Under the pieces are notes generated by a model. It saw nothing but the letters and a program-made list of their open reading frames with translations, was not told the origin of the DNA and searched no databases. Positions 10,094-63,163 of a DNA stretch of 64,000 bases are shown one piece after another; position 1 is the stretch's first letter, and each line of letters starts with the position of its first letter. Origin of the DNA: Seison nebaliae (lineage: Eukaryota > Rotifera > Pararotatoria > Seisonacea > Seisonidae); contig JALJEE010000561.1 in assembly GCA_023231475.1 (NCBI GenBank), positions 25,545 to 89,544 of the forward strand. The letters are read 5' to 3'. A program made the position numbers and the translations under genes.

Positions 10094-13000
10094 ACATTGG
10101 ATAATATCGATAGTGATCGTAAATTGAATAGTGATGTTGTATCGATCGCGTCAACGAAATTGATTGACGAGAATAATTTGAGGAATAATCTGTCTAGTTC
10201 GTATAATTGTTTCTTTGAATATTGGATGAATGTTTCGTTTTGTCAAACAGATGATGGTTTAATTGAGACATCGTCGAGTAACAAATCGAATTATTCGGAA
10301 CAAGAGAATACGAGTGAAGATATGTCGATCGATCCTTTGCAATTCAATGCGTTAGTCGACACTAATGAAGCATTACGTACCGAGTTGAAACGATTAGCGC
10401 CACTTGAGGTCGATTATCAGAAATTGGAAGTTGAATATAAGAAATGTATATTGAAGTCGGAGGAATTGCAACAAGAAGTCGATAACGAACGAGGAACTAC
10501 GAAGATTCTCGAGCAGCAACTGAAGGAGTTGGAGAGAACGTGCGATAATTTGAAGGAAATCACGACGACAGCTACGTCGGATGACGAGAAATTGAACATT
10601 ATCCAAAACGAATTACGTCGAGCGCAACATGAGAATGATCAATTACGGACAGTAGCGAACGATTTCGCCAAAGAGAATGAGATGTTGGAGCAACAATTGA
10701 CAGTCAATCGACAAATGATTGAAAGTTTAGAAGACGAATTGAAGAATGTCAAGAGTGATGTCGATCAGGAGAAGAAGAAGAAAATAGAGGAGAAGGAACA
10801 TCTTCATCAATCCACTTCCTCCACCTCACTCATTCAGACGAATGAAAAGGAGATGAATGAACGAATATCGATGTATGAGGAGGAGAATATTCGTATGCAA
10901 AAAGACTACGGTGACAAATTCCATGAAATGACGAGAGAGATGAATGAATTGAAACAACAGAATGACCACTTCCATCAAACAACTATTGAGTTAAATGATG
11001 AGAAATCGAAACATAATTCTCAAATGGAAGACTTGAAAAGGAATCATGAGAATCGTTTAATGGAAATTGAGAATGATCATAAAGAGAAATTAGATAATTT
11101 ACAAAGAATAAACGATTCGATTATCAATGAATTGAATGAGCAATTGACAGATAATCGGAAAGAGATTCAACATATCGATCAAGAGTCGAAGAGGAGAATT
11201 GAAAATTATGAAATTCAATTCAAACAATTAAATGAGGAGATGAGAAGATTGGTGGAAGAACGTGATGAATTGAGATATCATATCGAACAAAATCAATGTA
11301 AAACGGAAGTGAATGAAGATCTCATTCAACGATATTCCACCATCCAGAATGAAGTGGAAACGACGCAACAAACGTGCAATTTGGAACGAGAAGAGAAAGA
11401 AGAATGTCAAAAATTATTGAAAGATCTCAACAATCAATATGCAACGTTGACGGAGAAGAATGAGGAACTGATTGACGAATTGAATGAATCGGAGAAGAGG
11501 AATGAGATTCTAAAAAAAGAAATATTGGAAGAAGAAAAAAAAATCGATGAAATGAGAAGAGAATTCGATGAACGAACGAAATTGCAGGAAGAAGAAAGAT
11601 CGACAATCCATCAGCAAATGAATATTTATTGTCAGAACTTTGAAGAATTACAAGAGAAATATGACGAGATGGAATCGCATCAAAAACAAATCGATCGACA
11701 ACATCAGAATGAAATTGAGACGTGTATGATGGAATTGCAAAGTTTGAGAAGTCAAAATGAAATTCTGTCGAACGATAAATGTTCGTTGCAACAACGTGTG
11801 AGTTGTTTGTCGACGGACGGCGAAGAATTGAGAGAACAACAAAAATATAACGATGGTTTAGAAGAGGAATTGAGAAAGGAGGAAGAAAAAGTGACTGATC
11901 TAATTGAATTGTTTAAGAAGAAGGAAGATGAATTGGAGAAAGAGTTCAATGGACAACGAGAATGTTTGATGAAAGAGAATGAGATGGTCGTAATGGAACA
12001 CAATCAGAAATATGATGAATTACAAGAACAATTATTTATGGAGAAACAGACGTTCCAACTTCAAATTCAAGAAGCAAAAAATGAAATTAAAATGATGATG
12101 GACGAAAAAAATGATTATCAAATGGAAGTACAATCGATGAAGAAAGTGTGTAATGATCAGGAGATGAGATTGGAAGATCTGATGGAGAAGAACGAAGCTC
12201 TACTCTCAGGAAATGAGGATTTGGAATGTCAAGTAAAAGAATTACATTCCACCATCCACCAATTAGATAATCAACTATTAATCAAGAACAACACCAAGAA
12301 CGAGGAGAAGGAGAAAGAAGATGAAAAAGAATTATTTGATGTATCGATGCAAACTGATGAGATGTTGTCAATTCATGACGATCATCAAACGATGTTAAAT
12401 GGAGAAGATAATGAATATGATGAGGATGAAGAGGAGGAGAAGAAAGAGAAGTGTGACGTGGGAATTCTAACAAATATTTATGGAAATTCCGATTACTTGT
12501 CGGATGAGGATAGTACTGAACTCATTGAACTACGCTCGAACAATGCCACGTTGACGAGAGAGTTGAGACAACTAATTGCCGAATATCAAGAACTGCAGAA
12601 TCAGTATGATACCATACGATTATCATTGGAGACAAGCGAACAAGAACGAACATTATTAGCAGAGAAGTTGGAAGATCTACCAGACATTGCTGAACTGCAA
12701 CAGGAAGTTAGTGAGAATAATCGAATTATCTTAACTAAATTATCTGGTAACTTTTCCTATTCCCTTTTGAGGGAATTGTCGAACTAGAAAAGAAATTTTG
12801 TTTTCGTAGGAAAATGTCGAGGGAAAAAAAGATTACTGTCATTCGAACTAACAATATCCTTCTTTCCTTTTCTCTTATTTGTACTCATCGGAGTATCCTA
12901 ATCGATTTCCTCTTTCAACATTTTGTCTAGTTACACAAATATCAAAAGAAATGCGATGAACAAGAATCGGAAATTAAGGAACAAAGAAATCAAATGAATA

Positions 13001-13941
13001 TATTAGAGAGTCAGATCAATGTGCTGGAAGAGAGTCAATTAACTAGTTTCAATGAGAAGAAATTGGAAGATGAATCGTTCAAATGTGAAATGGAGAAGTT
13101 AAAGAAGGAGCTAATGGAATTAAGAGAAGAAAAGGATGAATTGGAATATAATCAGTCGCTATTGAAAACACAATTAATTAATTCAGAAGATAATTCGAAG
13201 AATTTGCAGAAACAATTCGAGGAACAAGAAATCAACTCGAAACGAAACATGCCAACCATCAACAATACACCTGTTAGTGTCTCTTCTGATTATCGGGAAT
13301 GGTTGAAATTAAATGTTTTTTAGAATCTCAATAATGATTTGGAAGTAATTCGATCGACTATCAAAAGCTTGGAGAATAATTTATTGGGAAATTTAAAAGA
13401 CAAATGCTCATATCAAATGATCGATCAATCAGCATTAGTATCGACGTTGCAGCAGGTCGAGAACCGTTTACATTACATCGAACAATCACAACAAAATCAG
13501 GAAGTCGTTCTAAATCAGACGGCGAAGATCGCGACAGAACAAATGGAAATCTTATCTCGGAATCGAAGTCCATCCATTTTGAAGGAGACGAAGGGAATGA
13601 ATACTTCCGATTCGTTTATGTCTCTCAAGAATCCGTTTGAGGCACCTCGCAGTCATAGTCATATGAATGTGAACAATAATTTTTTGAATAGTGATCTCCA
13701 AAAATGGAATTATGACGAGAAAGAAGATACGATTAAACTCAAACATTTCCTTTCAATGTCATCCTTACATCCATTAAATGATCTTCAATCGATTTTGAAG
13801 GATCGACAAGAATTGGAGAATTTCCTCCTTACCAAATGTCAACAACAACATCTGGTGACATCGCCACTTAATAACACCAATAATAGTTGTAGTAGTAGTA
13901 GTGGTGGTAGTATGGGTGGTGGGAGTTCGAATAAAAAGATA

Positions 13942-14009
<68 letters not shown>

Positions 14010-17303: not shown

Positions 17304-17946
17304 TTAAATCAGGATAAATTTCATATAATTCTCCTCACTGATCAATTCCAAATATCTCAACGTTCTCAACAATTGATTTCGAGTACATCCAACAAACTTG
17401 TGTTGGAGGAAAGTGGGTAGTCCGCCCACTTCGTTCCTCATCGTATAAATTGGCGGGAAGATGAGACCGCAAACTTCCGTCCCGAAATCTTTCGCTTTCA
17501 TCGATTTCTCCACCAATTCTCTCATATCCTCCTCACTGATCTCTTTCACAAACAAATGGAGAATTAGTGAATTATTTAGATCCAGTAACGATTCGAAATG
17601 ATCCTTCTTCTCCACAAACAATTCCTCTTTCAAATTGATTTCTTCTTTACATTCCCGATTCACTCCATCAATCACCAATTCCTTCTCGTCAATGAATCCA
17701 CCGGTAAAGCCCAACGTTCCGTCGAACCTCAATTGCATCTTCCCAAAACCATTAAATTTCCACAGAAACAAATAGACTAACTAAAATTTTCGCACGATTC
17801 TCATAAACATTAAATGTTTTCTGTTTCGTCCCACACCAGAATAGGACATGTCCTGCCACTTTGCCACCCGTAGGAAGCGGATGATTGAACGGGATCGATC
17901 GATAATTTTTCGAATTCTCCAACAAATTACTCTTATTTTTATTCAT
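17304..17946 (-). CDS. NUDT16: NUDT16-type Nudix hydrolase (U8 snoRNA/nucleotide decapping)
   Basis: Exons 17782-17946 and 17304-17738 (intron 17739-17781, 43 nt, GTTAGT...AAG, phase 0) give 199 residues, close to the family's ~195. The Nudix box is complete at residues 69-91: Gly69, Glu75, Arg83-Glu84, Glu87-Glu88, matching GX5EX7REUXEEXGU. The block LMQLRFDGTLGFTGGF just before it and GGLPTFLQHKFVGCTRNQLL near the C-terminus are diagnostic for NUDT16 rather than for other Nudix enzymes. Known role: metal-dependent hydrolysis of m7G/trimethyl-G caps of U8 snoRNA and of (deoxy)inosine diphosphates in the nucleus. The start at 17946 is chosen because upstream in-frame residues are hydrophobic UTR-like translation. 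Confidence 0.92.
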
Positions 17947-18529: not shown

Positions 18530-20665
18530 TTAATATGATTTCATTCGATTAATATTGGAATCGATATTAATCCGATAGAAATCAATATTTGCCAGTTGTC
18601 CATCTCTTATGGAATGATAGATCCATCTGAATAAAAGAGGAAAAAAATAGAGAAAAAAAGAAAGAAGAAAACTGAACATAATTGAAAGAACGGGAATGTT
18701 CCATTGAATGGCTGCTTGGAATTTGACGGTAGTTTTGTCATCACAAATCAAATAATCAGTTTTCAATAAATTCTCATCTTTCTTATTTCGAATGAGAGAT
18801 CCCTGAATGATTCCTTTCAAATCACCTATTTCTTGTTCAACCACACATCGTTTCACATATTCCATTCCACTTAAACAAAAAACGATATTTTTGAATATAT
18901 TACCACATCTCTCTCCATTCCGATCATATGAGAGATATATGGGAAAATGAAGTTGAAAAAGATAATTCTTATCTAATTTTGATTCTTCCCATCTCTCATT
19001 GCGATCATGAGAAAGAATCGGATCTTTCAATTTGTAGTTGGAGAATGAATGGAATAATTGTCGATGACGTACACAATCGACGATCCAATCGATGGTGAAA
19101 ATGAATTTATCTTGTCGTTTCTCTTTAGTGACAGCTTGTGATTTATCGACGACATTTGGAAGAATAACAATATCGGATTTTGAGAAGATTTCAACGAGTC
19201 CATCATCATTCTCGATCTTTTGTCGAATTAATGTGAGAATATTATCATAATTATTTCCGTTATCAATTTGAAAATTTTCGAATTTGGGATCAATGGTGAA
19301 AGTTAAAGAATCGAATATTTTCGGTGAAATGATCAACATCCTCCGACTCACTAAAAGAGAATTGAGACATTTGACCGTTTCTTTCATTTTCTCTCTCGAA
19401 TTCTCCTCATTGTTTTGACTGTTTGACAAATAATTTGCCAATAATTTATCTTTCACTAAATTCTTCGATTGATTCTTTTCCGATTTCTTTTTTGGTATAG
19501 TCGTAGTCTGTGTTTGAGGTAGATGAGTAGAAGAAATATGTTGAAATGATAAATTTTGATTGGATTTTAATAATAAATTAAAATCATTTTTTTTCATTCC
19601 AGAAATATTGTGATCCATTTCTACATTCGATTCATTAGTATTCTCATTTCCGTCAACGGATAAAAAGTTATTTGTGAGATTACTGTTACTATTGTCACTA
19701 TCAAATGATGAGAAAGTAGTTCGAATCAATCGATTTCCCAATTTCAGTTGACGACTAATGAGAAAGTTATCCTCCTCAACAAATCGATCTTTTAAACGAC
19801 ATTCTTCCAACCATTCGATGGTAATTATAGGTATCTTCCATGACATGGCTGCTTCATATTTTCCTCCATATGTTGCCATGGTTACAAGATGAGTATTTTG
19901 ATTACGGATTAATCCACCAGAAAACTTCCCACCTAAACTCACAATCAATTCCTTCAATCGATTTGTTGTTGAAAGAGAAAATTGACTGATGGAAATGACG
20001 AGACCATGTAATGGTGGACATTTATGTTTTTTCTGTATCTCACTCAGATTTACATCGTTCGAAATGGATCGACGGTAGATGTCATCGATCATATGCTTCA
20101 AAATCAATTTGGGTTTGTTTTTCAAACGAACTGCACTCCGATATTTCTGACTGGCCACCTGACCAACGATTAAATGAGTCACATCTTCCGTCAACGGTCT
20201 CGATACGATTCCGCCCAATATCATAATTTTCTCATATAATTTATTTCGCTCCTCCGCGTCAATATTCGTTATACAAATAATACAATTCTTCAGAACGTAT
20301 GAATAAAGCGGGAAATTGGTGTAAGGAAACGGTTCATCTTTCTTCATAAAATCGATTAGAATTTTCGATCCATAAATTCGACATTTCAACTTCTTCAAAT
20401 GTTCATACACTTTCGTTCCGAACGGTTCCATGACAAACATAAAATTACCTCTACTCGTCACTGTCCAACAATCATTTTCGCTAATATATTCGACGTTAAT
20501 GCCGAAAGTTGATTGAAAAATTTCATAAATTTCTTGTAATTGCTCTTTCTGTCTCTCACTTATCATACGGAGAACATTATCGTCAAACACAATACGGACA
20601 TAAGGATAATAAACACTCTCGTCTCGAGAAGGAGTCATCCCGAAGTCAACCTCATCTCCATCCAT
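18530..20665 (-). CDS. TOPBP1: TopBP1/Mus101-like multi-BRCT checkpoint scaffold, short form
   Basis: Exons 18678-20665 and 18530-18626, separated by a 51-nt intron (18627-18677, GTTCAG...CAG, phase 2), give about 694 residues. The N-terminus is BRCT0 (about 20-110, with EPFGTKVYEHLKKLKCRIYG), followed by BRCT1 (about 118-205, GGIVSRPLTEDVTHLIVG) and BRCT2 (about 218-300, LGGKFSGGLIRNQNTHLV, IPIITIEWLEEC). After a Ser/Asn-rich linker come a divergent BRCT-like region (about 430-560) and a last BRCT ending in WIYHSIRDGQL, which the intron splits. TopBP1 binds phosphorylated RAD9/Treslin and activates ATR at replication forks and breaks. Vertebrate and fly proteins have about 1400-1520 residues, so this copy is half-length and lacks recognisable C-terminal BRCT6-8. 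Confidence 0.88.
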   Translation of the reverse strand: MDGDEVDFGMTPSRDESVYYPYVRIVFDDNVLRMISERQKEQLQEIYEIFQSTFGINVEYISENDCWTVTSRGNFMFVMEPFGTKVYEHLKKLKCRIYGSKILIDFMKKDEPFPYTNFPLYSYVLKNCIICITNIDAEERNKLYEKIMILGGIVSRPLTEDVTHLIVGQVASQKYRSAVRLKNKPKLILKHMIDDIYRRSISNDVNLSEIQKKHKCPPLHGLVISISQFSLSTTNRLKELIVSLGGKFSGGLIRNQNTHLVTMATYGGKYEAAMSWKIPIITIEWLEECRLKDRFVEEDNFLISRQLKLGNRLIRTTFSSFDSDNSNSNLTNNFLSVDGNENTNESNVEMDHNISGMKKNDFNLLLKSNQNLSFQHISSTHLPQTQTTTIPKKKSEKNQSKNLVKDKLLANYLSNSQNNEENSREKMKETVKCLNSLLVSRRMLIISPKIFDSLTFTIDPKFENFQIDNGNNYDNILTLIRQKIENDDGLVEIFSKSDIVILPNVVDKSQAVTKEKRQDKFIFTIDWIVDCVRHRQLFHSFSNYKLKDPILSHDRNERWEESKLDKNYLFQLHFPIYLSYDRNGERCGNIFKNIVFCLSGMEYVKRCVVEQEIGDLKGIIQGSLIRNKKDENLLKTDYLICDDKTTVKFQAAIQWNIPVLSIMFSFLLSFFLYFFPLLFRWIYHSIRDGQLANIDFYRINIDSNINRMKSY

Positions 20666-23395: not shown

Positions 23396-24435
23396 ATGAT
23401 AATGGCAAATGGACAAGGCTCATCGGGGCCACCTCCGATTAATTATCATTTGGAATATGTGAAAAAAGAAGGAAATATGATTGGCAGTTCATCTTCTCAA
23501 AACAACAACAACAACAACAACAACAACAGCAATAATTTGATGAATTTGCAGAATTCTCATAATAATAATAATGGTGGATCGTCGATGTACAAATATTGTA
23601 TGAATGACAGATCACAAACAACTGGAATGAGTAATAGTCATGCTAACGATATTTTTCATGATGCATCGAACAAAAATGAAATAGAAATTCGTCAGGAATA
23701 TCCCACGACTCAACCCGTCAAAAATTCACCAGCTGCTGTTTTTATTTTTTCTTCTGTTTTTCTTTTGGATGATTTCTCTTTCATTCTTCCCTCTTTCTCG
23801 TGTTTCTGTAGACGGCTTGGTTAATTGAGAATTTCGAACCATGTGACGGTTCCAGTGTGAAGCGAGCGGAAATTTATTATAATTATTGTCAGTATTGTGA
23901 AGAGATGAGTGTGAGTAAAGTGAATGCAGCATCGTTCGGTAAACTGATACGAGCCGTATTCGTCGGATTGAAGACACGTCGATTAGGGACGAGAGGAAAT
24001 TCAAAATATCATTATTATGGTATACGAATTAAACCTGGTTCGGCCTTGAATCGACAATCAGGAAATTATCCAAACCATCACTCTCATCATCATCATCATC
24101 ATCATCATCACATGAAAACGAAATTGGAATATATGAGAGCGTCAGATTATAATATTGGAGGAAATGATTATCAATGTATGACGACGAACAGTAATACGAA
24201 CAACAACAACAACAACAGTAATGAGAATAATGAGAATCATTCATCGAATGGAAATAGATCATGTGAAAATGATTATGGTTTGAGCATGTACACGAATAAC
24301 AACTCTTCTCAACAACATTTACGACAACATACAAATAACAGTAATACGAATAACAATAACAACAATCAAATTTTTGATAGTCAGATGTCCGACAATATTT
24401 CGACATCAGCTGTCGATGGAAATCAATTGGATTCA

Positions 24436-24466: not shown

Positions 24467-26514
24467 TATCGATGATTTCACATCCATCTAACGGTAACAA
24501 TACCAATAATATTGGCGTATCATCATCATCAACATTAATTTTATCATCTGTTTCTTCTCTTACATCAACGACGAAAACTACCATCATCTCCAACAACAAC
24601 AACACTAATAACAACAACAGTAATTGTTTGAATTATAATTCTCATTCTGATCATATCTCATCTCCAACTCCTACGCAACAACAACAACAATTGAATAATC
24701 ATCAATCACAATATAATAATCATGGAAATGAGACAGGAGGAACGCCACAATCGAATATGTTTCCGATGTCATCATCAGCTCATCATCAACAATCAAATCA
24801 GTATGGTGATGAAACGAATTTGCATATACAAGATCATTCATGTCTTGATCATCATCCAATGACGATTAATGATCCAACGGATCCTAGCAGTTATCTACCT
24901 GATTTTGGACATGTCGATCTCACTGATTCCACTTTACCTGATGGTTGTACACTTACTCATTTGAACACGTTCGAGAAGTTGTATCGAGAACATTGCGAAC
25001 AATTGGCGGAGACGATCGTCCAAACGAAATTAGATGAAGTAAATAATATTTGGAATGTTTTTTGGCATTCACCTAAAGCTGATCGGACAGCTGTAGAAAA
25101 TTCGATGAAAACAGGATTATCTACTCTCACTCTTTACGCTCTCTGTGAAATGAATGCCGTAAGAAATTATATTCTAAAATGTGATTACGTCTTCTATCAG
25201 GCTGTGGTAGAAATACTCATTCCTGATGTGGCATCCGCTCTCCAAAACGATCTGATGCCACGAATACGATTATTCGCTAAACAATTGGAACCGTCACTTC
25301 GTAGTGCATTGGACTTAGCACCGGAGAAATTTAAACAAGCAAAATTGAATGCAGTGAATGCATTCGCTCTCACATTACGACGATATACGGCACTCAATCA
25401 TATGGCCCAAGCATCGGGTAGTGTCCTCTACAACTCGTCACAAGTCAATCAGATGATGACGGATCTGTCGAAAGTGGAATTCAAACATATTCAGGTTTTC
25501 TTTTTTATTAAAATTTTCTTATTTAAATTTCAATATTGTTATGATAGGAACAAGCGGTATGGAGTACAGGATGTTCGGATCAGATTGTTCACAAAATCGA
25601 GAAATCGTTCAAGACGAAACTTCAAGGACATACGAACATTCAAGGCTGGATTGAATGGATCGATGAAGTCATTGAATTGGTGTGTGCAAATGTTTTGCAC
25701 GATGTCAAATTGTTTGAAGATCGTGCATGTAGTTTACCGATGCATTGGGCTTGTTACTGGAATCTGGTGATAAGAGACTTGACATTAAGAGGAGCGAGAT
25801 CATTTGGTAGTTTCCATCTTATTGGTCTACTCTTCAGCGAATGTGTATATTATGTGGTGGAGAGGAAGATTGCTCGAATGAAGAATTTACCACCAATAGC
25901 TGTAGTAGCTGAACGGAATGGAGAATGGAGATTGAATGCTAATAAAGAAATTTCTTCTGATACTCTTTGTCATCCTAACTCCCATTCACACTCACAACAA
26001 CAACAACAACAACATCGTTATCTTCATTCACAAAATTCCCAAAGTCAACATTCTTCAATTCATTTACATTCTCTCCATCTCCCACTACAACAGGTACATA
26101 ATAATAATAATAATAATAATAATAATCATGCACAACAACAACCACCACAACCATTAGCCCAACAACAGCAACAACATTTACATCATTTACATTCACCACC
26201 AATCTCTCAACAACAATCACATCTCCATCATTCACAACAACAACAACAACAATGTCATCAAAATATCTATTCATCTGATCGTCATCACCAACAACCAACA
26301 CAACAACAACAACAACCACCTCAACAACAATCTCAAAATAATAACAGAAATCAAACCATCACCATTCAACAATTGAGTTCCACTCAACAACAACAACAAC
26401 AACAGCAACATCACGATATGTATCCTCCACATTCTCTCCAAATCACAACGACTCAATATACACCGGTTTCAAGAAAACCATATTTACAACATATAACAAT
26501 CTCATCAAATCATC

Positions 26515-28519: not shown

Positions 28520-29200
28520 ATTACGACTGTAGTAATTCATTCGACATCAATTCTGACGTTCGTCAAGGCATTCTTGGGCCTGGGCTTTTAGTCTGGTTAT
28601 TGATGCGGTTCTACGTCATTTGAATGAGAACAACCATATCACCATGGGAGATACTCCTTTTCCACTTGTTCTCGTATACACTGACGACATAAGCATCCTT
28701 CACCGTTCTCTACGAGAGATGAAATTTCCAAAAATTTCACATCTCCTCGCAGAAAGAGGAATTTCTATCAACGCATCGAAGAGCCGGTTCCCTTCAATCA
28801 TATTTCTCTGTTCATTGATTAACATGCGTTCACTCTCTTCAATCACTATGGATCATAATCCCAATAAGTTTTGTCGAAAATATTTTTCCTTCTCTCCAGA
28901 ATCCAAATTTATTTCTTTAAAAATTCGTTTATCAATTCTCAAAAGTATAGTTCGTTTCTGTCAATGGATCAGACCAACAATCGACTCATTAGGAGGATGG
29001 TCTGTTGCTTCAACAGATATAATCGTTCTCTGCTTTTCGATACTGTTGGTTTAGTTCCGGTCCCAATTCTCTTATGTCGTAGAGCTTTCTCTCTTATTGA
29101 TAAAACTTCCGCGGTCAGTATTGTTTGCAATTTCGATATATTTAATTGGAGGTCGTATTTAGTTTGGACTATTTCAAATCACATAATATTTATCCAGATA
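28520..29200 (+). pseudogene. Non-LTR retrotransposon reverse-transcriptase fragment, frameshifted
   Basis: One frame reads SFDINSDVRQG (RT block with VRQG). A shift near 28588 leads to FSLVIDAVLRHLNE and then LVLVYTDDISIL, the catalytic [Y/F]xDD block, followed by RGISINASKSRF, the typical next block. Further decayed pieces (RRMVCCFNRYNRSLLFDTVGL) occur in another frame up to about 29110. The spacing is that of a LINE RT palm, but at least two frame changes and stops make it non-functional. No endonuclease region, 5' part or poly(A) tail is seen. It appears to be a different family from the LINE at 56.1-57.1 kb. Confidence 0.75.
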
Positions 29201-40700: not shown

Positions 40701-42527
40701 GTTGAATCATTTAATGAATCATTTCAATTTTGAAGAATGGAAATTAAATAATTCCAATCAATTGAATGATGTGACTAATCTCCAATTGAGTAGTAATTGT
40801 GGGGAGAGAACAGTGTTAAAATTGGCATTAGCAGTTAAAGATTTCTCTTGTTCTTTCGTCATTTTCGATGGATATGATTTTGATATATCAGAAAAGATTT
40901 ATAATTGTAAGAAACGTTCCTCTATTCCATCTACTCGCGATATGAATAATTATTTTCGAATTCATCTATCTCGTTTTTATCTCTCATATCAACAATATGA
41001 TATTGATCGATATTATCGATTATTCTCCAATGATATCATGCAAAAATTTTCGAATCGATTAGGAAAATGTTCGAATGGAACATTGATTTCTGATAAGAAA
41101 TCGTTGGAAAAGATTGCAAAGAAATATTCTCACATAATCAAACATTTTCATGATATTGATCAGAATAATGATTTGGAGGAAGATGTTTATATTCATCAAA
41201 TCGATTCGAGTAATGTCCAATTATTGAAATATTTAATATTTCTCGATGAAATTTGTGAGTTGATGAAGGATATTCCATTCAAAGATTGGCAATGTCTCCA
41301 TATGAATTGTGGTGACATAAACATCACACATAATAAGAATCCATCATCTGGAAATGTTTCATCATCTGAATTTAATAATTGTAAGTCTTTATCTATTCTG
41401 TCCATGTTGACATCAGATAAGATACCATTCTCTCATCAAATGAATGCCATCCATTTCAAATTGGAAGCGACAACCATCAACGAACAATATAACGATAATG
41501 ATCGATCATCTGATTTGGATTCGAATTTGAGTCTCAATCAAAATCCATCTAATAATACTCAATCTGATACTTGTGAATTACAAATTCGTTTAAGTATTCG
41601 TCCACTTTATCTCGATTTGAATAAAGATATCATCGTTTTCATTCTAACACTCATCAACAATTTGAATCGATGTCATGCTCATTTTTCCAAATTCACGTCA
41701 TCTCTTAATCAACAATCATCTGAAAGAGAAAGAATCAATTCCACCACCACCACCACCACCACCACCTCATTCGGACGAACAATGAATGATCAATCTCAAT
41801 TACTCCAATCGATACCAATGGAAGTAAAGGAAAGAATTCCATCAAATACTTCATCTGGAGTAACTGCCACTTCATCAACTCTATTCATCAAACGAGTTAT
41901 CATCGCTCCTGCCATCTATTTACGAGTTGATTATTCGTCTAATATTCTCGAAACAGTTCAACGACATTCCGCTATCCTCACTAAATCATCAGGAAAAGTG
42001 GACGATCAAAATGACGATAATCGAGACAATTCAACCGATTCGACGATTCAGCGAATAAAAGACAATAATGACATTTTAGATGATCAGCCACTATTAATGA
42101 AGATTCTTCTCGATTTAGCGAGTGTACATGGACTCTATTTGGAATTGATACGAATCGATGACAGGTTTATTATTTTTTTCTTTCCATTTCTATTCAAATG
42201 AATTTTAGGAGTGGATTCAAATCATTCGATTTGATGTTAAATTCTATTCTAATGAAATGGAAAGATCACATTCAACAGAATCAAAGTGTAAAAATCGTTC
42301 AAAGTGTATCGGCCCTAAAACCATTTTTTCAAATCGCGTTCGGAATCCACGATCTTCTTGCCAAACCATTAAGAGACTCACAAACAAACGAGACAATTTT
42401 AGGTCAATTTATTCAGAATGTCCGATCAATGGCAGATCAGGCCGGTGTCGCTCTATATGGAGCAGGAAATTCTTCGTGTAATTCGGTGGCGGATCTGGTG
42501 GATAGTTTTCGACGAACGATGTTTTAA
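33496..42527 (+). CDS. ATG2: ATG2-like autophagy lipid-transfer protein, unusually large
   Basis: Exons 33496-42164 (8.7 kb) and 42209-42527, separated by a 44-nt intron (GTTTAT...TAG, phase 2), give 2995 residues. Residues 1-60 are the chorein-type N-terminus (TAQLIRQYLGNIFETKIKKEQLDLHL...ITLKKLKL) that extracts lipids at the ER end of bridge-like transfer proteins. The next conserved block (GFVEELNVKCSIF..., MVESILKNFIFVAEDIEILIDV) and the C-terminus (VSALKPFFQIAFGIHDLLAKPL...GQFIQNVRSMADQAG) match ATG2 rather than VPS13. ATG2 moves phospholipid from the ER into the growing autophagosome. Animal ATG2 is about 1900-2100 residues. The excess here is low-complexity insertions, including a poly-Asp run (35068-35124) and Asn runs at about 37675-37740. 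The start is the first ATG in frame. An upstream TTG-initiated extension is unlikely. Confidence 0.88.
35068..35124 (+). repeat. (GAT)n repeat coding poly-Asp in ATG2
   Basis: In-frame GAT run with a single AAT interruption. It makes a 16-18 residue acidic tract within the N-terminal third of the ATG2 protein. Confidence 0.9.
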
Positions 42528-43641: not shown

Positions 43642-45543
43642 ATGTCTGATACAAAAGAGAAGAAAGGTCTGAAGAAATCGGATTCGAAAACACGTGTCAA
43701 ATCATCGTCGACTGCTCGACGATCGAGTAATTCTTCTCGTCGAAGTTCCGTCTCCAAATCGAAGGGAGGAGTCAAAGTAAAAGAGGATTTGCAACGGAAA
43801 GAATTGATTACATCGATGTTGAAGCAATTGGGCGAACTGGATTTCGAATCAAGAGTTTACACATTTCAACAATTCCTCACTTTCTTCCAAATGCCTCATT
43901 TGATTAAAGTGGAACAGAGTTGGAGTGATGTCGTACAACCGAAACAAAATATTTTCTTCGATTCATTCTTCGAACGATACGTCATTCTCGCCACTAATCA
44001 GAATGAGAAGAAAAGTGATACAAAATTCTTAATTCCCGATTGGTATCCGGGCGAATTTAAAATTCTTTCATCTAAGCCCAAATTGAGAAAACGATATTGG
44101 GTGTTCCAAGGAGCATTCGAATTATATCGATTCGAATCGATGTTTCCAAGAAAGATTCGTGTGCTTGATGACACAGTAGCACATATTCGATCGTCATCTG
44201 GAGGTAGTGGGAAAACGGAATGGAAGAAAGTTTTGTTGAGAAGGAATGCCTATTTGTATGCGACAAAGATCGATACGAGAGTTGATGAGAAGAATAATAA
44301 AGAAGATTCGTTTGTTCTTAAAGATAAACAAGGTAACTGTTTCATTGTACCACCATCCGTACCGATGAGATGGGCAACTGAAATTAAAGACGAAGAATTG
44401 TCTCCCGCTTATCAATCGAATGAAGGAACATTCACTTTACCTGAATTGTTGGTGAGATATGAATTCCCATTAGATCTCGAATTGACTTCTGGTCCACCAA
44501 TTACTGAAGTACCGAACTTTTCAAAAAAATTACGTTTCCATGCATATGCCATCGCTAAATCAATCATCTCAGTTGTCGTCAATGATAATGGTGATGGTGT
44601 TCTCACCGAATTAGCACCAAGTATCAAATTCTCTTTATTCTCTCCAAAGTTCTTCTATTTTCATTCATCTTGTAAATTATTAACAACTTTTCTCTTTCAA
44701 TAGATGTCTCACTGCTGGAGCTGCTCAACAACAACAACAACAACAACAATTAGAGAAAGATCATCAGAATAAAGATGAAGGAAAGAAGGGAAAGAATGGG
44801 AAAGAGAAGAAAGATAAAGATCCGAAAAAAGAAGAACAAGAATTGTTGGCACTCCAAAAGAAATTGTTCGAATACAATCAATTAAGATCGAAATTGTTAC
44901 AAGCTTATCATAACTGGATTGAGAATTATAAAATTCTCATCTTACCAGCAACTGAAGCTCAAGTTAGATATATTCTTCTAATTCTTTTCTTCTACTCATA
45001 TTTCCCCATAGTTAACGGCAGTAGAGATGTCGTTCCATGCCAGTGAGAAGTTGAGGAAGACGGAAGAGAAAGGAGTGGAGGATACATATTCAGTCAAGTT
45101 CAAACAACCAGAACAATCGAACATTTCTCTAAATCTTCCCAGAAATGATACGATGGAATTTGTTGCTTCGTTTCCAGGTTTAAACATTCTCTTTCAACAT
45201 TAATCGAAATATCTCTTTATCAGACGATTCATTCGGTGACGATGCTGATTATGATGATGATGATTTGGAGGAGAACGACAAATCGAAAGATCGTAAAGAT
45301 AAATCACGAGATCGATCAGCTCGAATTCGTTCTCGTAGTCGCAGTCGAACTGATCCGACACGTGTCAAATTGTCCACAGCCGCTTTACATGCAGCGTTAG
45401 TAAATTTGATTGATTATTTCATTTGAATTATGTTTGTGTATAGTGGTGGAACGCCGGCGACAAATGAGGAGATGTTCAATGCAGTTCCGGATAAAATATA
45501 CACGACGAAAGAGTCGAAAGAAAGTAAAGAATCGAAGAAATAA
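43642..45543 (+). CDS. Five-exon protein of unknown function with basic Ser/Arg N-terminus and RS tail
   Basis: Exons 43642-44648, 44704-44962, 45012-45177, 45224-45395 and 45444-45543 (introns 55, 49, 46 and 48 nt, all GTT...AG, phases 2, 0, 1, 2) give 567 residues. Residues 1-45 are Lys/Ser/Arg-rich. Residues ~50-330 look like a folded globular domain (FQQFLTFFQMPHLIKVEQSW, FLIPDWYPGEFKIL, KRYWVFQGAFELYRFESMFPRKIRVLD, PPSVPMRWATEI). A Gln/Lys-rich helical linker follows, then a second folded block (EMSFHASEKLRKTEEKGVEDTYSVKFKQPEQSNISLNLPRN), then an acidic patch and a short Arg-Ser-Arg-Ser tract. I do not recognise the family. A cytoskeletal or axonemal component would be a guess only. Confidence 0.8.
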
Positions 45544-49784: not shown

Positions 49785-52217
49785 ATGAAAAATTCAGAAG
49801 AAATGAAGAATAGTGAGATGAAATTGTCGAATGTAAGATTGAAGGAGAATTTCGATGCGATTAATGATCGAATAATTCGAATTCTTGAAATGAATTTAAA
49901 TGACGATACATATCAGAATTTATTGGGATCGATTCATCATTGTTTAACGACAACGGATGAGAGGAAAGGAGCAGGAGATGAATTGACTGATCGAGAAATG
50001 AAATGTTCATATATGAAGAAATATTTCTGGCAGAATAATAATAAGATGGTGGAGAATTTATTGGAGAATGTGCAACCGTCGTTGGAGGTGATTGAAAGAT
50101 TGGAATTGAAGTTCGACGGATTATTAGAGAAAGTGGATGAAATGGAATTCAGTCTCACTAAATCTAAAGAGAATTCGAGAGAATTGATAAGTCAAACGAC
50201 TGAATTGCAGAAAAAATATAATGAGAAGTTGTTGGAGGATCAATTATTAACTTCATATCAACATCGTTTCTTGTTGAATGAGAAGGAGAAATTGATTTTG
50301 ACACAATTGAACGATAAGAATGAGAAGTTGTGTGAGGAATTCTTCCGAGTTTTCGAGAAGATTGAACGAATTCGGAAGAACTCGAAAATCCTGTTGCAAT
50401 GTAAAGAAACGGTAGCGGCCGTTCAAATCATGGAGGAGATATCACATCATTATGAATTGGCAAACGAAGAATTGTACAAATGGGTTCAGAATCGTGTAAC
50501 ACGATTATCACAAGAAGAGATTATTGATATTTCGAAAGATTTGGAGAATGCTCTCGAAATGATGTTGAATCGACCAATTCTATTCTATCATATCATCAAA
50601 GAATATGGTCGTACGAGAGGGAAAGAATTGTTAAATTGTTTCGTGAAACGATTAATCGATTCGAATCGACAACAAATCGATTCGTTCAATTCATCCAATC
50701 CAGATCATAAATTAGATATCGTTCGATTTACTTCCGACGTTTTCGCTTGGTTACATCAGACCATCGCTACGGAACGTGAGAATTCTCTCACTATTCTCAA
50801 ATCAGTTCGTTGTCGTGACAAGTTATTGAGCGATAATGAATTGACAAAGAATTTATTCTATTTCAATTCCATTTCTCAACATCATGAGAGAGAAGAAGAG
50901 AAGAAAGAAGGAAAAATAGAAGAGAAAGATTATTTCATTCAATTATCAATTCCATCAAATCAATTCGTTCTCTTAATTCTTGATACAGCAACGTCATATT
51001 TATCGAAAGTATTTAATGGGAAATTGAGTAAATTATTCATTTCTCCCATTTACTCTTTACCATCTATTCATTATCAATTAATTCAAATATTTTCCTTCTA
51101 CATTCAAACACTCACTAATCATTTACCTTATCATTCTCAATTGATGATTACCATTCGTGATCTCTATTTGTTTGTGAGGAATATTTTCAAGAATACCATC
51201 CATACGGAAGCCACTCGAATTATGGGCAATTTTTCTAATAAGAACATCAAATCGATGGTGACTGAACGAATTATTATTGATCTACAACCACCAGATGAAT
51301 ATCAGTCATTTTTAACATCATTCGGTCTCATGATTTATAAACCGACTATTGTCAAATATTCTCGTACTCTCTCCATCTTCAATGGAACGGAGGATGACGA
51401 GAAGAATGGCATCTTATATGATGCCAACAAAGAAATAATTTCAATTCTAAAGAATGTTACACAAACTCTACTTTCTGCCATCAATTTAGGAGCGACACAA
51501 TTAACTCGCAAATCCGATATCAATGTCTTCACACTCAATTGTCTCATTCCATTGAAGTATGCAATCTCGATGTACGAACGACATTCGTCCAAACATACTC
51601 AAGAGATTATGGATATGATGGAAGCGCGAATCTCAACTGAAATCGAAAGTTTAGCGAACGAACAAGTCTCTCAAATACTCATCATTTGTCAACTGTCTGA
51701 AATTTATAAATATGTTTTGGTTAATAGAAAAAAAAAAGGTTTAGACAAACAACAATTAGACGAAGAACAATTAGATGAAGAACAATCAAACGACATACCA
51801 AAAATGACTTACATTGATCAATTGTTTTCTGACGAGAAATATCGAAAACAACTTCGTATTACATTCTCGAAAATACGATCCTTCTTCATCACACCATCCA
51901 ACTTATTTCTTCCTTGTATTCTGAAGTTACGTGACGAACGAATCAGGTTTAATTTTTTTTTATTATAATTATTATTTGTTTATATTTCTCATATTTCTCT
52001 CCCGTCCAAATATTTTAGAACTGAAATTCTAGAGAAATCTTTGAAAATCTTCGAGAACGTTTATCGTCTAATTTATTCGTATTTAATGATGACAAAGGAT
52101 AATGATAATGGAGATGACGAATGTAAAACGATAAATCTTTTTATTGAGTATTTAAATGAGAATAATTTACGAATATTATCAATCGATGAAATGAGCGATT
52201 GGTTCAAAAGTAAATGA
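49785..52217 (+). CDS. COG6: Conserved oligomeric Golgi complex subunit 6
   Basis: Exons 49785-51946 and 52019-52217 (72-nt intron, GTTTAA...TAG, phase 2) give 786 residues against about 657 in human. An N-terminal coiled coil (about 85-190, containing QTTELQKKYNEKLLEDQLLTSYQHRFLLNEKEK) is followed by the COG6 core. Conserved landmarks are AVQIMEEISHHYELANEELYKWVQNRV, NRPILFYHIIKEYGRTRGKELLNCFVKRL and HKLDIVRFTSDVFAWLHQTIATERE. COG6 sits in lobe B of the COG tether, which guides retrograde vesicles within the Golgi. The start is the first ATG; a GTG at 49719 in frame is not a credible eukaryotic start. The gene converges on E-Syt. Confidence 0.92.
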
Positions 52218-52447: not shown

Positions 52448-55400
52448 TCATGTTTCAGATGATAATGTATACCATTCGGTAGTCATTTGATTCAGATCCA
52501 ATTTACTCAAATCAATAATCGTCTGTCCCAGAAACTTTTGTTCATTCGACATAAATGAACGATCATTATTTACTGTCACTTCCAACTGTTTCTTTGTCGC
52601 ATCCATCAATGACAATTGCCATTCAAATCTAAAAGGGGAATGGAATATTTAAAATTCTGAAATAAATTCTCTTTAAAAAATTTAACTGATCTTCGAATTC
52701 TGGATCGAGATTATTTCGAATAACAACCGATTTCCGTTTCTGAGTACGTTCAGGTAACAAATATAATTTGACATATGGATCAGATAAATTATCTTTATCT
52801 ACATTCCTCAAATTTCTACATTTATGAATGACTACTTTCAATTTACTTCGTTCCATAATATAACCGACACTAATTTGAATTTTGCCCCAACCTAAATCTT
52901 GATTAGAATTTGGTCGTTGTCTCAACGACGGATGTTCCTCTTCTAACAATCGATTATTTGGTGACACATCACCATTATTATTATCTATATCAACATTTTC
53001 TGGAAGAATGTGTTGATCATCAAAATTCTTCTTGTCTATCGAGTTTGATTCGTTAAAGGACAATCCTTCATCTTCCGTCAAAGATGATTGTGGAGATGAT
53101 GCTTCACTCTCCAACACCATAATCTTCAACCAAATCTTTAAGAATATTTTTGCATTACCAACAGAATTTCCTGAATCATTCGTTATATCAAATGGACGTT
53201 CCATCGTCATATTTGGTCGATTGAGGAGAACGTTAATGGGAATTTGGACGGATCCAATTCCTTCAGCTGGTTTATAATTCATTAAAGAGATTGTGAAATT
53301 TTGAGTTTCGCACGACATTACTAGAAATTGGAAGGTCTTATTCCAAGCCGGTTTCGTCGTTGACGCTTTAAACGATGTCTCTTCCGTTTTCTGTCCGACT
53401 TTCAGAAGACAATATGGACTTGGTTCCATTACATTATTATTTGCATCTGAAGTCATCTGAAGAAGAGTTTTTATGAAATAAACTTTCATAAATAAATCAA
53501 ACAGGAACGCCTTGAGCATAATCTACATGAACGAACAAGACTGCACTCGCTTTCGACAGTTGACCCGATTTGTCCTGGAAAAGTCATTTTAAGCGATTAA
53601 TAAGAAAAATTTATAGAAATTATCATTCACAATTCCAGAAAGTATAGCGACTAGCAAGAATGTTGAGAGATTAAAGAAGGTTGAAAGTTGCGAAGAGAAT
53701 AAAATTGGAACAAGAACAACAATCGAATTCTGATCAACTAAAAAGAAATGTGGAGGAGAACTCGATTATGATGGATTAGAAGAAGAGAATTAAATTCTGA
53801 TGATTCTCTGAAGAGAAATTAAATTGGAATGAATTGGAAGAAAGAGAATTGAACATCAGCAAAATTTAAAAAAGTTTAAGCACAGACGTATTGAAGAACG
53901 GATAGCGAAAGAAGAAGAGGGGCAAGAGCAGAAGAAACAATTCACATTTTCTAATTAAACATGGCCAGATGAAAGCGAAAGAGAAAAGGATAAATAATAA
54001 ATATTTGTTGAAATTCTTTAACCAATTGGTCAGATGCGTCGATCTAAAATATCAAGAGATAAATAAGATAATATATTAAGATTATTTAAAATGTGTTTGT
54101 ATATTAGGAGAATGGAAAGGACAAATGGAGGAAGGAAAACATAATTATTAATAGGACTCCAAATTCCCGTTAATAGGAACATTTAAAGATCAATTTAGCT
54201 GAATGAGGATCAGGAGAGAATTATTGAACCTTAGCATAGTCTAACGAATTAGACGATAAGTTGTACCAATACGATTTTAGATGTAACATTCCAGTCAACG
54301 TATTCTCCAAAGGAATCCACTTCGATAACATTAAATATTGGATAGAATTGAAGAGATAATTAAGAAAGTAACTGAATCGAAAACACCTTGATCTTTCAAT
54401 GTTTTCACTGAGAGACTGACATCACCTAAAGCGTCATCTTCATCAGCATCCTTGTCGTACATATTCAATTCGAGACGAGCACCATTCTCATCTTGAATGA
54501 TGGCTTCATAAATCGAATTCCAAACTGGTGACAATGTCCTCTTTTGTGTATGTGTTCGGAAATATTTATTTCCAACTAACAAATTCGAAAAAAAAAGTAT
54601 TCGAATACATTAATTCACAATACTTAATCATTACGAAAGACGTTAACATCGAATTTTAACATATGGATCCGATTTGGCTCCAAATCCAATATCTTGTTTC
54701 CTCAATTCTTTCGCTTCAACCACTTCGATACGTAACACTCCCTATCAAATTCGAATGAATATAATTAAAATCATCTCATAAATTTACTAACAGCACATAA
54801 ATGATATTCCAAATCGGAAAGATCGATATCTTTGAAAATTGGAATTGTGTATCGATTGGGCAAAACGAATAATGAATCGAATGTATCATTGACTTGTGTC
54901 AGAATCGTATCACTATTAGTTTAAATAAATATGTTATTTGAATGGAAATATGATAAATGGAAGTTTAAACGTTATGCCTGGTACGCTAAGTGCATTGGCA
55001 ACATCAGTAAAATCGAAATTGATATCCTTTCATAATTCAAATATGATTTTGAAGAAAACTTTTAATTTTCATGAAAAATTTAAATAGAACCGGTGATTGA
55101 AGGAAGAAAACGGTAATTCCACCAAACAACGGCATCCGTTTACATAACGGTTTCAATACAATACGAATATTACCATGTAATTGTAAGTTTTTTATACCAG
55201 CCGTTATTCCTTTCACTTTACATTTGATACGAGCGTCACCTGCATATCTGAAATGTGGATAAGAAAATAAAAAACTGAATAAAAACCATAAAAATTATGA
55301 AGAAATTTCTAACAGAATTTCTGTATCGATTAGAATTTCATTTCTTCGTACATTTTCTGTGTAGGTTTTGAATCCTCCAAATCTTGGTGGCTGAGAAGAA

Positions 55401-55951
55401 ATGAATGAAATGGAAATGATAAATATATCGAACAATGTCGCCCAAATCAATTTTTTCGAAAGAGAATTCTTGTAATTGTGCGTGAGCATTTTGGATGGCA
55501 CTCTCTACGAAATTCCTCATAATTTCTGTCATATAATCCCCGAAATATGGCCATGCTTGTTTAATGATATTATTAAACCATTCGGCACGTTCCTTGTCCG
55601 GAAAATAGACCCATGCAGGAACTTCATGTAAACGTGCAAGAATTGCATCCTTCTCATTCGTCATTAAATTCTGTGCCATAATTCGTTTCTCTTCATTATT
55701 CTTACTTCTCTTCTTCTCCCAGATATAGAGTAGTGATGCTATTAAAATCCATGCGACACTGAAATTGAAATATCCTGGAAAGGAATTAAATTCCATCAAA
55801 TTAAATCATTCAACTACCAACCTAACAACCAGACGACAAGAACGAGAATAGTTATTCGGAAGTAATTCTGGATAATTTTCATCACATAATTATTGTTCGA
55901 GCCTTTGCCTCGTATCGACGTCAGATAATTGCCTGGATTGGTTGAAGACAT
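52448..55951 (-). CDS. ESYT: Extended synaptotagmin (ER-plasma membrane tether, SMP + three C2)
   Basis: Twelve exons: 55822-55951, 55434-55774, 55314-55390, 55091-55247, 54971-55026, 54792-54912, 54648-54741, 54373-54575, 54230-54319, 53509-53574, 52687-53456, 52448-52628. They total 761 residues. A hydrophobic hairpin (about 33-58) anchors it in the ER. The SMP lipid-transfer domain (about 90-285) has the hallmark VYFPDKERAEWFNNIIKQAWPYF, KIDLGDIPPRFGGFKTYTENV and DTFDSLFVLPNRYTIPI. C2A starts at residue 295 (GVLRIEVVEAKELRKQD, with SDPYVKI and DKDADEDD calcium-loop Asp residues). C2B follows about 455, and C2C about 650 (KLKVVIHKCRNLRNVDKDNLSDPYVKLYLLP). Drosophila Esyt2 has about 816 residues. 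All eleven introns begin GTT; ten are 43-72 nt and one is 655 nt. Intron phases agree across all junctions. Confidence 0.93.
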
Positions 55952-58333: not shown

Positions 58334-60412
58334 TTATCGCCGATCTCGAAAGTAACCACCATCTCCATTCCAGTATTTCGTCCAACCTGGTAAATTGAAT
58401 TTGGAATGTCGATTCCGAATCTCATGTTCATTTTCGATAGATTCATCTGTAAAATCTGTGAAGAGTATTAACATTTTAAAAGAGGAAAAATTCATTAACC
58501 TCCCAAATGGTTATGATAATTTGTTAGTTCATTCAAGTTCATCATCGACCCTTCTGGTGATCGGATATTAGTAAATTCTTTATGAATACTATTTTTCAAT
58601 GGAGGCGGTTCTAAAATGTACGTTGTCTGACGTATATGTTCCTCATGTTTTCTGGAAATGGAATTCTTTTCGATTAATTCTATTCCGTCTTCATTCTTCG
58701 GTAAGACAATTATCGGGGATTTTTGTATGTCGTTTAACTCTGTTGAATTGACATTTGATTCTAATAAAATCTTCTCGGGACGTAATCCGTTGTTGACGGA
58801 ACTATTGTCTGATTTTGGAGATGGTGGAGTCGTCGGTTTAGGAGGAGGTTGTGCAGTAACAGATTTGGATGGAATTTGTATTTTGATTTTTTCTTCTTTC
58901 CCATTATCTTTCGCTGCCAAAAGTAATCTTTTACTAATGTTATTCTTTGGAATTTTATCTTCTGGCATCTTCTCGAAATCTGAAAAATGAATGACACAAA
59001 TTAAACAAACCATAAAAAACGATAACTATTCAACGATGCATCATAACAAATTTTATTTGGCGCTATACGATTAAAACGATTAGCATGTTCCGGAGGCAAT
59101 AACGACATATCGAAATTTTTATATTTTCCCGTAGTTCCACCATAACATCCCAGACATGCACAACATGTGCCGCAACAACGTTGAGACGAGCAAGATCCTT
59201 TTTTAGAAAAATAAATAAATAAAAATTTAATGTAGGTAAAATTTTCTTTTTTCAAAAATATCGAACCATATGGTCCGATTAGACAATCATTTTGACTTCC
59301 ACATCGTCGGCAGAATGAATAGTTCCTGCATCTCGAACAATGCCAAACTAGCCAGCCAGGACGCCAACAACAATAATATAACAGAATAAGAAGTAGTAAA
59401 CCACCAATAATACCTGTGGGATGAATGAGAAGTAGAAGTTGGAAGAATTATGGAAAGAGTACCGCAAATTAGATAAATTAAGAAATAATTCGGTCTTGGT
59501 TTCAAATTCGGATCGACAGTACTGGTAGAAGTGGTAAAGAATTCCGTTACTTGTCCCACTACCAAGTGAGAAATTTTATCATTTTCATAGAACAATCAAG
59601 TGAACCTCGACAATTTCCTGGAAAAACACCGATCAAATCACCATATTGGTCATCACCACAATTGGGACTGAAAGCTGAGTCGCATCTCATTTGTGCATCG
59701 ATACATCGACGAGAAAATGGTTCGCAAGAAAATTGACTGAATAATGTTGTGTCACATTGTCCGATATGGTATGAGAATATATCGATAGCGAATGTTAATT
59801 TAGCATTGGAAGCACTTTCATGATCGATCGAGAATGAAATTAGAAAAAATTTAGTAATAATCATAAAAAAACCCCATATATACGATGATTCTGAATTTCC
59901 TGTTATTTCGTCCATCTCTAATTGGAGAAACATTGGGAGCACTACCACATACCTTCCCATAAACGCTAGCTGATAAATTGTTTCAAAGATGTTGATAAAT
60001 GAAATTAACTTGAGTCCGAGTTGAATGCAAGTGTGTCATCGTTCATTTGGAGAACTTCCACGTTGGCAACATCGCAATTATCATTGGGAGTGAGAACCAA
60101 ACTAAATTTATTTGGTAGTAACTCATCTTTACGAATGTTAATTTCCGTCAACTCATCATAATATCCTAGTGCCCATTCTCTTTTCAATTCAATATTTATT
60201 GTACAAATGGCTATTCGATTAATCGTACCAGAAATTGAGAAACCCCAATCAGCCTCATATGTCTCCTCGTTGTTATTGGCACAAAGTGTTGATAAATCGA
60301 CTAAGAATAATTATTAAAAATATGTAAATTATCGAATAGTAGAACTTATCTTAAGGGCATCAACTGAATAATGGACGAATACGAATAGGCAGATATAAAT
60401 TGAGATAATCAT
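58334..60412 (-). CDS. Single-pass receptor-like protein: signal peptide, CUB-like, LDLa, TM, Cys-rich cytosolic region
   Basis: Nine exons: 60346-60412, 60010-60300, 59873-59969, 59606-59814, 59463-59558, 59267-59413, 59027-59197, 58500-58979, 58334-58455, with consistent phases, encode 559 residues. A signal peptide (1-19, MIISIYICLFVFVHYSVDA) is followed by a CUB-like ectodomain (about 29-172) and one LDL-receptor class A module (Cys172, 182, 189, 196, 204, 220, with RCD and CGDD calcium residues). The TM helix is about 246-267. Just inside the membrane lies a region with many cysteines (CCWRP...CSRCRNYSFCRRC...SQRCCGTCCACLGC), then a Pro-rich disordered tail. CUB+LDLa ectodomains occur in auxiliary receptor subunits and sorting receptors. 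I cannot assign an orthologue. The paired CxxC motifs could bind zinc, or the cysteines could be palmitoylated. Confidence 0.85.
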
Positions 60413-61342: not shown

Positions 61343-63163
61343 TTACAAGGAGTGCAATATGAAGAAGAATTGTTGAATAACTATGTTGTCGCATGGATGA
61401 AGATCGGCTTTACAAAACAATTCAGTCATCTCATAAAAATTTAAGAATATGAATCTTCGTTTTACATCCTCATTTTCGTGCTGTAACAACAACCATAAAT
61501 AATAGAGAAATCGAGAGTTCATGAATTGCAGGTACTCCGTGCCCAATTCCAGAGCCTGTTTCATATAAGAACTATAAGGTGTATTTAGGTATTGAGCGCC
61601 TATATGTTTCCGTGGTTGCTTACCGGCACCTTTATACAGAACCTTAATGTGAGGTATCTCTTTAAGTAGTTGAACCACCATGGCGGTTAAAGATTGAAGA
61701 CGTTTCATGTAATATTGATAAGAGACGGCTGCTGGATGATTATCATAGTTTATAACGATAACATGTGGAATCGGTTGTTTGTTTCGATAATCTGTCATGA
61801 TATTTTTCAGATAATATTCAATATCTTTATGTATATCAAAATCTGTCGCATGACGAATTGGTGGTCCATGAAGTTGATAAGTTAAATTGAAATGTAAACC
61901 GAATATATCTCGCGCAACGATATTGGTGTGAGCTTTCGCATCTACCCATTGAATGATCTGCAATCTGAACAATTTGTAGAAAATGTGAATGAATTGTCGA
62001 AGGGTAGAGTCTCCAATGAACAAGATATTTCGACCTTTCACTTGGTCTCGAATGTATGGATTGAGAGCAATCGTCTTCACATTCTCCAAACTTTCCGCAC
62101 TATAATTTAAGATTACACGGGTGAAGTTCTCGTAGAATTCGTACCAGTTCTCAAATGTTGTTCCGTCATTCACGAAATAGGTACAATGTTTGAACATCCA
62201 CAAATTGTTAATATAGAATCCTTGGGAGAGTATGTCGTTCATAAAAATTCGATAAAGATTTCGAATCGAATCATTATGACTGATATTCGGATAGAAGTTC
62301 TCAATTCTCATTCCGCTATAAAACGTGTTACATAAAGGCACTTTAATACGTTTCTTCCTTTGAATGTTTCTCTCCGTCTGATTATCTTCTACGACCTTAA
62401 AATGTTTTTTAGAATTTTCAAAAAAATATTTATTGGTAAAATATCGTTGATATTGGTGAGTTTCTTTATTGGAAATCGGTCTCATATTTTGCACGTAAAC
62501 GAATTTTCGATTGGTATGACAATAACCATCCACTTTCTCACAATAGAATTGACTGTATTCCGTACTTCGATTACAGTACATGCTGTTCCATTTTGGGTAT
62601 ACTGTTACGCTACAGATTGCCTTCCTATCATTTTAAATTTTACTAATCTAATCGAATGGATTATCGAAGACAAACTTGCGGTTTCTTGAGGCTGGAATGT
62701 AAAATTCATATCGCTCTACCAAATACCATTTAAATATAATATCTAACACTTCATTGGGAAGCCAATTTGTTTGCTTTTCATAAACAGTTCTACGAAAACA
62801 ATTTTCGATATTTAAATACTTACAAACATAACACTCCTCCAAAGCAGACGCAGAAGAATGTAATTTTATGGAATAATTTTGCTTATTTGTTTCTTCCAAT
62901 AAATCAAAAGATTTTGGATAAATAATTTCTCTGGCGAGTTTGGAAGAATTGATAAGTTTAGTGTCTTGCATTGAAAATTGTTTGTCGTCAAATTTGGAAG
63001 AATTGATAAGTTTAATGTCTTGGATCGGAGATTGTTTATTATTAAGTTTGGAAGAGAAAATTGTAATATTCGAGTATGGAAACCAATTGGTAAAATAATA
63101 AAGAAGTATGATTAGTAGAATAATGACGATATATAGCCGCCTGTAACATTTGGGAAATTTCAT
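61343..63163 (-). CDS. NXPE-like type II membrane PC-esterase domain protein
   Basis: Exons 62676-63163 and 61343-62624 (51-nt intron, GTTTGT...TAG, phase 2) give 589 residues. A short basic cytosolic tail and a signal-anchor helix (about 10-27) indicate a Golgi type II protein. The stem holds two imperfect 18-residue repeats (SKLNNKQSPIQDIKLINS / SKFDDKQFSMQDTKLINS). The catalytic domain has the SGNH/GDSL nucleophile block ILFIGDSTLRQF (Gly367-Asp-Ser369) and the closing D-x-x-H block in CKADLHPCDNIVIQQ (about 570-580), as in NXPE and other PC-esterases. The family is thought to modify glycans by (de)acylation, with substrates mostly unknown. Several Asn-X-Ser/Thr sites are in the lumenal part. 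The N-terminal neurexophilin-like part is only weakly recognisable. Confidence 0.82.

Follow-up and report, generated by a model that had tools for sequence, protein, structure and literature searches.

Probable joint change of the U1 RNA and the 5' splice-site code in the rotifer Seison nebaliae

The epizoic rotifer Seison nebaliae (PMC8351084) very probably uses a 5' splice-site (donor) code that changed together with its U1 small nuclear RNA (snRNA). The starting point was a stretch of 64,000 nucleotides (contig JALJEE010000561.1 of assembly GCA_023231475.1, positions 25,545 to 89,544 of the forward strand; here called the window), for which a reading of the letters alone, the original prediction, had held that nearly all introns begin with GTT and that a changed U1, or a recognition dominated by U6 and Prp8, would follow from this. 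All material comes from one genome, the S. nebaliae assembly of 36,032,870 bases in 846 contigs. In the mechanism that we propose, three diverged U1 genes have an A at position 6 of their donor-pairing region, where U (normally pseudouridine) is usual; small nuclear ribonucleoproteins (snRNPs) with such an A6 U1 would read GUU rather than GUA or GUG, and nearly all introns have come to carry U at +3, matching A6. A retained U1 of ancestral type may serve the minority of donors or another job of U1.

Donors were fixed by homology using a spliced aligner without preference at +3, in which GT is free, GC costs a penalty of 4 and AG is imposed. Nine reference proteins (eight PDB sequence stretches and the first 520 residues of the Mactra E-Syt) were aligned to DNA from seven contigs; outside the window, genes were picked because they have solved relatives. 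The 26 introns obtained comprise 24 with GTT, one with GTA and one with GTC, and the 21 whose donor leads the next candidate by at least 4 score units comprise 19, 1 and 1, respectively. GTT is found at all ten aligned E-Syt donors and at 14 of the 16 donors of the eight genes outside the window. Every one of the 26 introns starts with GT although GC was allowed, as expected of U2-type GT-AG introns, but the purine expected at +3 of this type is present in only 1/26.

This is further supported by the E-Syt gene on the minus strand of the window, where the original prediction had counted eleven GTT donors out of eleven. The deposited Seison protein SNEBB_008442 maps exactly onto the window with 11 junctions, and 11/11 are GTT. 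Introns 1 to 8, which the Mactra alignment also places, lie at 55775..55821 (TAG/GTTGGT, the slash marking the exon end), 55391..55433 (ATT/GTTCGA), 55248..55313 (TCT/GTTAGA), 55027..55090 (CCG/GTTCTA), 54913..54970 (AAC/GTTTAA), 54742..54791 (GCT/GTTAGT, letters read at the coordinate), 54576..54647 (GAT/GTTAAC) and 54320..54372 (TCA/GTTACT). For intron 9 (655 nucleotides (nt), 53575..54229, AAG/GTTCAA) the Mactra alignment agrees with a margin of only 1, and for intron 10 (53457..53502, CCT/GTTTGA) it chooses a nearby GTTCCT with margin 0; intron 11 (52629..52686, TCA/GTTAAA) comes from the SNEBB_008442 map. The available part of the genome paper (PMC8351084) describes RNA sequencing and transcript mapping, and the origin of the deposited gene models was not found in that part.

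A larger set of introns was obtained with our own gene finder, which is given coding statistics, reading phase, GT and AG and in its no-prior mode is blind to +3; the counts cover introns of up to 400 nt whose flanking exons measure 36 or 45 nt or more. In a 246.7 kb sample (the window plus 20 further regions) the no-prior gene finder places T at +3 of 53/70 introns, compared to 121 of the 300 other GTs that lie no more than 60 bases away (about 40%; p = 2e-9), and in a 300.9 kb sample of 39 pieces it does so in 66/88. When trained at every position except +3 it gives 87/110. The fully trained version, run on 26 pieces of which some share one contig, yields 107 T, 5 A, 1 C and 1 G among 114 introns; full training inflates GTT, and our conclusions rest on the results blind to +3. 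Imposing each of the 64 trinucleotides singly as the donor makes GTT an outlier with a frequency-corrected residual of z = 6.0, followed by CAG with z = 2.7, and GTA, GTG and GTC fall outside the top ten; by raw gain in fit, TTT and ATT, which are about 2.7 times as frequent, rank above GTT. That the rule is an artefact of calling introns in AT-rich DNA is hardly credible: the trained gene finder is indeed biased and skipped the homology-supported GTC intron of the U1-70K gene, but homology blind to +3, the deposited E-Syt model and both no-prior counts, set against the 40% background, agree. The GTT donor observation is thereby confirmed. It holds for 27/27 introns of the window and for the homology-fixed donors at the ratio given above, but not absolutely, as GTA and GTC donors occur.

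Position +3 dominates the donor motif and the other positions are loose, in agreement with the original description of nearly free bases at +4 to +6 and at the exon end. In the fully trained set (n = 114) the counts are 62 A at -2, 53 A and 28 G at -1, 107 T at +3, 43 A and 40 T at +4, 29 G at +5 and 59 T at +6. No see-saw linkage of G at +5 with the exon end or with A at +4 was detected (p = 1.0, 0.51 and 0.38). With respect to an introner origin, ten inspected of the 17 intron-intron blastn hits among these 114 introns (16 to 40 bases) revealed no repeated family.

The U1 genes provide the matching change. Searching the genome with the Rfam U1 model RF00003 and scoring 41 of 293 candidates, we found at least four U1 genes, all of them (97.4 to 112.9 bits) above the cut-off of 69.5. 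A pattern search for the 5' end that allowed up to 3 mismatches recovered these four genes without a mismatch and gave five hits with 3 mismatches, compared to 18 for a reversed control. Three of the four begin with AUACUAACCUG or AUACUAACUUG, in which A replaces U at position 6, i.e. the very change that the original prediction had named as restoring the pairing; the canonical 5' end AUACUUACCUG is found in one. The canonical gene (L002, 5' end AUACUUACCUGG) and the A6 gene L001 (AUACUAACCUGG) lie 1.5 kb apart on contig C208, the A6 gene L003 on contig C647 has the same end AUACUAACCUGG, and L004 on contig C762 (AUACUAACUUGG) combines A6 with a change of C9 to U.

Several features suggest that the variant genes are not debris. 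An Sm-type site AAUUU(N)U is present in 4/4 (AAUUUAU, AAUUUAU, AAUUUGU and AAUUUCU), and the three A6 genes keep the loop AUUGCAC, which we take to be the U1A site, while the canonical L002 has CAGAGCAC instead. A consensus fold, predicted from the same four paralogs that were then scored on it, has 41 pairs with 92% of cells paired, and in 16 of the 41 pairs both partners are changed (6.5 on average in shuffles; 0/500 shuffles as high). Because of these compensatory changes the structure looks selected, and judged from their sequences the paralogs resemble selected RNAs rather than decayed copies. No common snRNA promoter element was clear by eye upstream of the U1 genes. The variant L001 (1501-1660) sits between predicted exons of the same strand and may occupy an intron of a host gene. 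Yeast branch points are complementary to GUAGUA of U2, and the variant U1 end AUACUAACC includes UACUAAC, which is complementary to this U2 sequence, making a U1-U2 pairing possible on paper.

Donor position +3 faces position 6 of U1 (PMC4383343). With A at this position 24/26 homology-fixed donors are paired, with U 1/26 and with G 25, of which 24 by wobble; A6 is the only one of the 33 possible single changes in 11 bases that gives a Watson-Crick pair with U at +3. Over -3 to +8 the mean number of pairs with the 26 donors rises from 5.50 for the canonical U1 to 6.38 for L001/L003 and 6.69 for L004, and the mean duplex energy changes from -1.90 to -3.18 for both variant types, in a model that does not include pseudouridine. 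By duplex energy the best variant U1 outbinds the canonical one for 24/26 donors and ties for 2. The U at position 9 of L004 would in addition pair with the most frequent base at -1, an A (53/114); this match counts less, because a preference for A at -1 could also come from U5 loop 1.

A number of observations weigh against a simple pairing rule. L001/L003 alone, with the register left free, bind 5/26 donors more weakly than the canonical U1, and G at +5 is found in only 29/114 introns, so that extended U1 pairing is weak. Perfect 11-base complements of U1 are not enriched in the whole genome: CAGGTNAGTAT occurs 16 times, three of these being the U1 genes themselves, compared to 64 occurrences of the reversed pattern; of the 16, more contain GTG (6) than GTT (5). 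There are well-supported exceptions among the donors, namely the GTA donor CCG/GTAGTA in a peroxidase gene (L020) and the GTC donor GAA/GTCGAA in the U1-70K gene (L041), and one canonical U1 gene (L002) is retained. Taken together, the weak +5, the lack of enriched full complements, the GTA and GTC donors and the kept canonical gene indicate that donors are not recognised through extended pairing. The pair formed at +3 is important, and U1C or later steps have to contribute as well. Two side observations concern the same sequences: strong consensus donors may be avoided, CAGGTNAGTAT being far rarer than its reversed control, and the donor CCG/GTAGTA is common to the peroxidase gene and to L016, one of the two being fixed by homology. 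A bulged pairing of GTAGTA donors with the variant U1 was considered and dropped as not discriminating, since the canonical U1 and L001/L003 come out equal.

It might be argued that the canonical U1 does the work, the A6 genes being minor or silent and a U-U mismatch at +3 being tolerated with the help of U1C. The canonical gene is present, and with human U1 snRNP oligonucleotides with U at +3 compete better when U1C is there (PMC4383343). However, the A6 type makes up three of the four U1 genes found and has the AUUGCAC loop, which the canonical copy has lost, and tolerance does not account for the replacement of A and G by U in roughly 90% of the donors; we consider this explanation very improbable. 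U1C and U1-70K of Seison can be aligned across their splice junctions to the solved proteins with no gap there. Of the lineage-specific changes that the original prediction proposed to look for in Prp8, U1-70K and U1C, only the U1C substitutions R28K, K29N and E32G relative to the solved protein were found, U1C and U1-70K being otherwise ordinary. R28 and K29 of human U1C are located close to the backbone of the RNA, and the protein has no base-specific contacts.

The original prediction had offered recognition dominated by U6 and Prp8 as an alternative, in which the GTT rule is set after the U1 step by U6, Prp8 or other proteins and A6 is a passive follower or a coincidence. The single U6 gene found among the 47 scored of 5404 candidates, a lower bound, has the ordinary ACAGAGA with its ACAGAG box, and Prp8 is ordinary, sharing 82-83% identity with its best matches in insects and other animals (100% to S. 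nebaliae SNEBB_004371 over 1767 residues compared, 98% covered). A U at +3 could presumably form a G-U wobble with the ACAGAG box, but a G in U6 would pair best with C, whereas U exceeds C by 24 to 1; moreover, the variant U1 5' ends have a single change common to all three, and it is precisely this change that creates a Watson-Crick pair with U at +3. What speaks for a later step is that +3 is by far the strongest position, with the other U1-paired positions weak, that full U1 complements are not enriched, and that, as has been argued, a donor becomes committed chiefly when U1 hands over to U6 (PMC11732430). We retain this alternative at low weight, as unlikely. The single U5 gene found has the loop sequence GCCUUUUAC, which we assume to be ordinary. 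Since Prp8 as well as the U6 and U5 genes found look ordinary, we place the change at the first step of donor recognition, that of U1, and the changed-U1 interpretation of the original prediction is supported.

We consider it likely that a whole animal genome was recoded from a purine to U at +3 via duplicated A6 U1 genes, one copy with U9 matching A at -1, and that the old U1 is a minor relic. In this reading the variant U1s would be expressed, enter snRNPs and cause the preference for GTT, and the duplication of U1 would have come first, with the donors following. The canonical U1 gene and some non-GTT donors, both of which are observed, were not foreseen by the original prediction.

Other spliceosomal components were also searched. 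Three U2 genes were found, with GUAGUA kept in both that were read; the third, L037 on contig C796, is more divergent (78.7 bits compared to 139.1 and 135.4). Searches for U11 and U12 snRNAs gave no match, and neither did their controls. A bdelloid spliced leader, considered as a control donor that does not depend on U1, gave no match.

In the window, the gene finder was run after three training rounds and is thus biased to the learned signal; introns longer than 400 nt or beside exons shorter than 45 nt were uncounted. It reported 22 introns, 22/22 with GTT, of which one was discarded and five of the remaining 21 belong to E-Syt, so that gene finder and deposited E-Syt together give the 27 introns cited above. 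Those outside E-Syt lie on the plus strand at 12707..12948 and 13273..13323 (both GTTAGT), in an RFX gene at 23738..23811 (GTTTTT) and 25495..25547 (GTTTTC), at 42165..42208 (GTTTAT), 44649..44703 (GTTCTT), 44963..45011 (GTTAGA), 45178..45223 (GTTTAA) and 45396..45443 (GTTAGT), and in COG6 at 51947..52018 (GTTTAA). On the minus strand they lie in a NUDT16-like gene at 17739..17781 (GTTAGT), a TopBP1-like (BRCT) gene at 18627..18677 (GTTCAG), at 31707..31759 (GTTAAC), 58447..58499 and 59942..60009 (both GTTAAT), and in an NXPE-like gene at 62610..62675 (GTTTGT). Direct reading of the letters returns GTTAGT at all five coordinates for which it had been claimed (12707+, 13273+, 17781-, 45396+ and 54791-), but the first of these junctions is not firm, as a later run prefers GTAACT at 12747. 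The discarded intron, 29169-29454 (-), was dropped because its 5' end (GTTCGA donor) falls inside a tRNA gene at 29434-29515 (-; Rfam, 67.2 bits). This tRNA gene is flanked at 28557-29054 and 29962-30828 by open reading frames that by eye resemble retroelement fragments, with a YTDD motif and a protein resembling gag.

Few RNA sequences are as conserved as the 5' end of U1. In the open-licence literature, searched by titles and starts of abstracts, we found no earlier case in which donors changed across a genome and U1 changed to match, and a combined-term search of that literature did not find the variant 5' end sequence. A term search of two papers with Seison genome data showed that one is without snRNA or donor and has 'splic' once, and that the other is without 'splic' or 'intron'. 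It is debated whether the donors retained in a genome are determined by U1 or by U6 (PMC11732430); with U1 and donors changed at the same base pair and an ordinary U6 box, Seison makes this question directly testable.

Seison shares with animals that have canonical U1 and GURAGU donors the GT-AG introns, the U1 fold, U1-70K, U1C and the ordinary U6 box, but differs in the A6 of three U1 genes and in U at +3 of nearly all homology-fixed donors. In humans canonical U1 and canonical donors dominate. The human variant U1 genes (vU1.3/.4 and vU1.8) are likewise paralogs beside a canonical U1, those of vU1.3/.4 having an altered 5' recognition domain (PMC13172311), whereas in Seison the variant type is the majority of the U1 genes found and is matched by the donors of the genome. 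U at +3 is shared with Entamoeba histolytica, whose donors are GTTTGT. This species is reported to have no U1 snRNA at all (PMC13292270), unlike Seison with its U1 genes. Fritillaria borealis is also an animal with unusual introns genome-wide, and its two U1 versions are described as having identical 5' ends, with a duplication of U2AF and N6-methyladenosine (m6A) invoked (PMC13326754). The switches between A and U at +4 in Saccharomycotina are likewise a lineage-wide change at a single donor position; there, U1 ACUUACC is invariant in every species in which U1 was found, U6 ACAGA is present in all 240 species and the switches come with no compensatory snRNA change (PMC10581693). In these other lineages with drifted donors, U1 either did not change with them (Saccharomycotina) or has the same 5' end in both versions (Fritillaria), while Seison, if our reading is true, would be a natural compensatory-base-change experiment in which U1 pairing shapes donor evolution.

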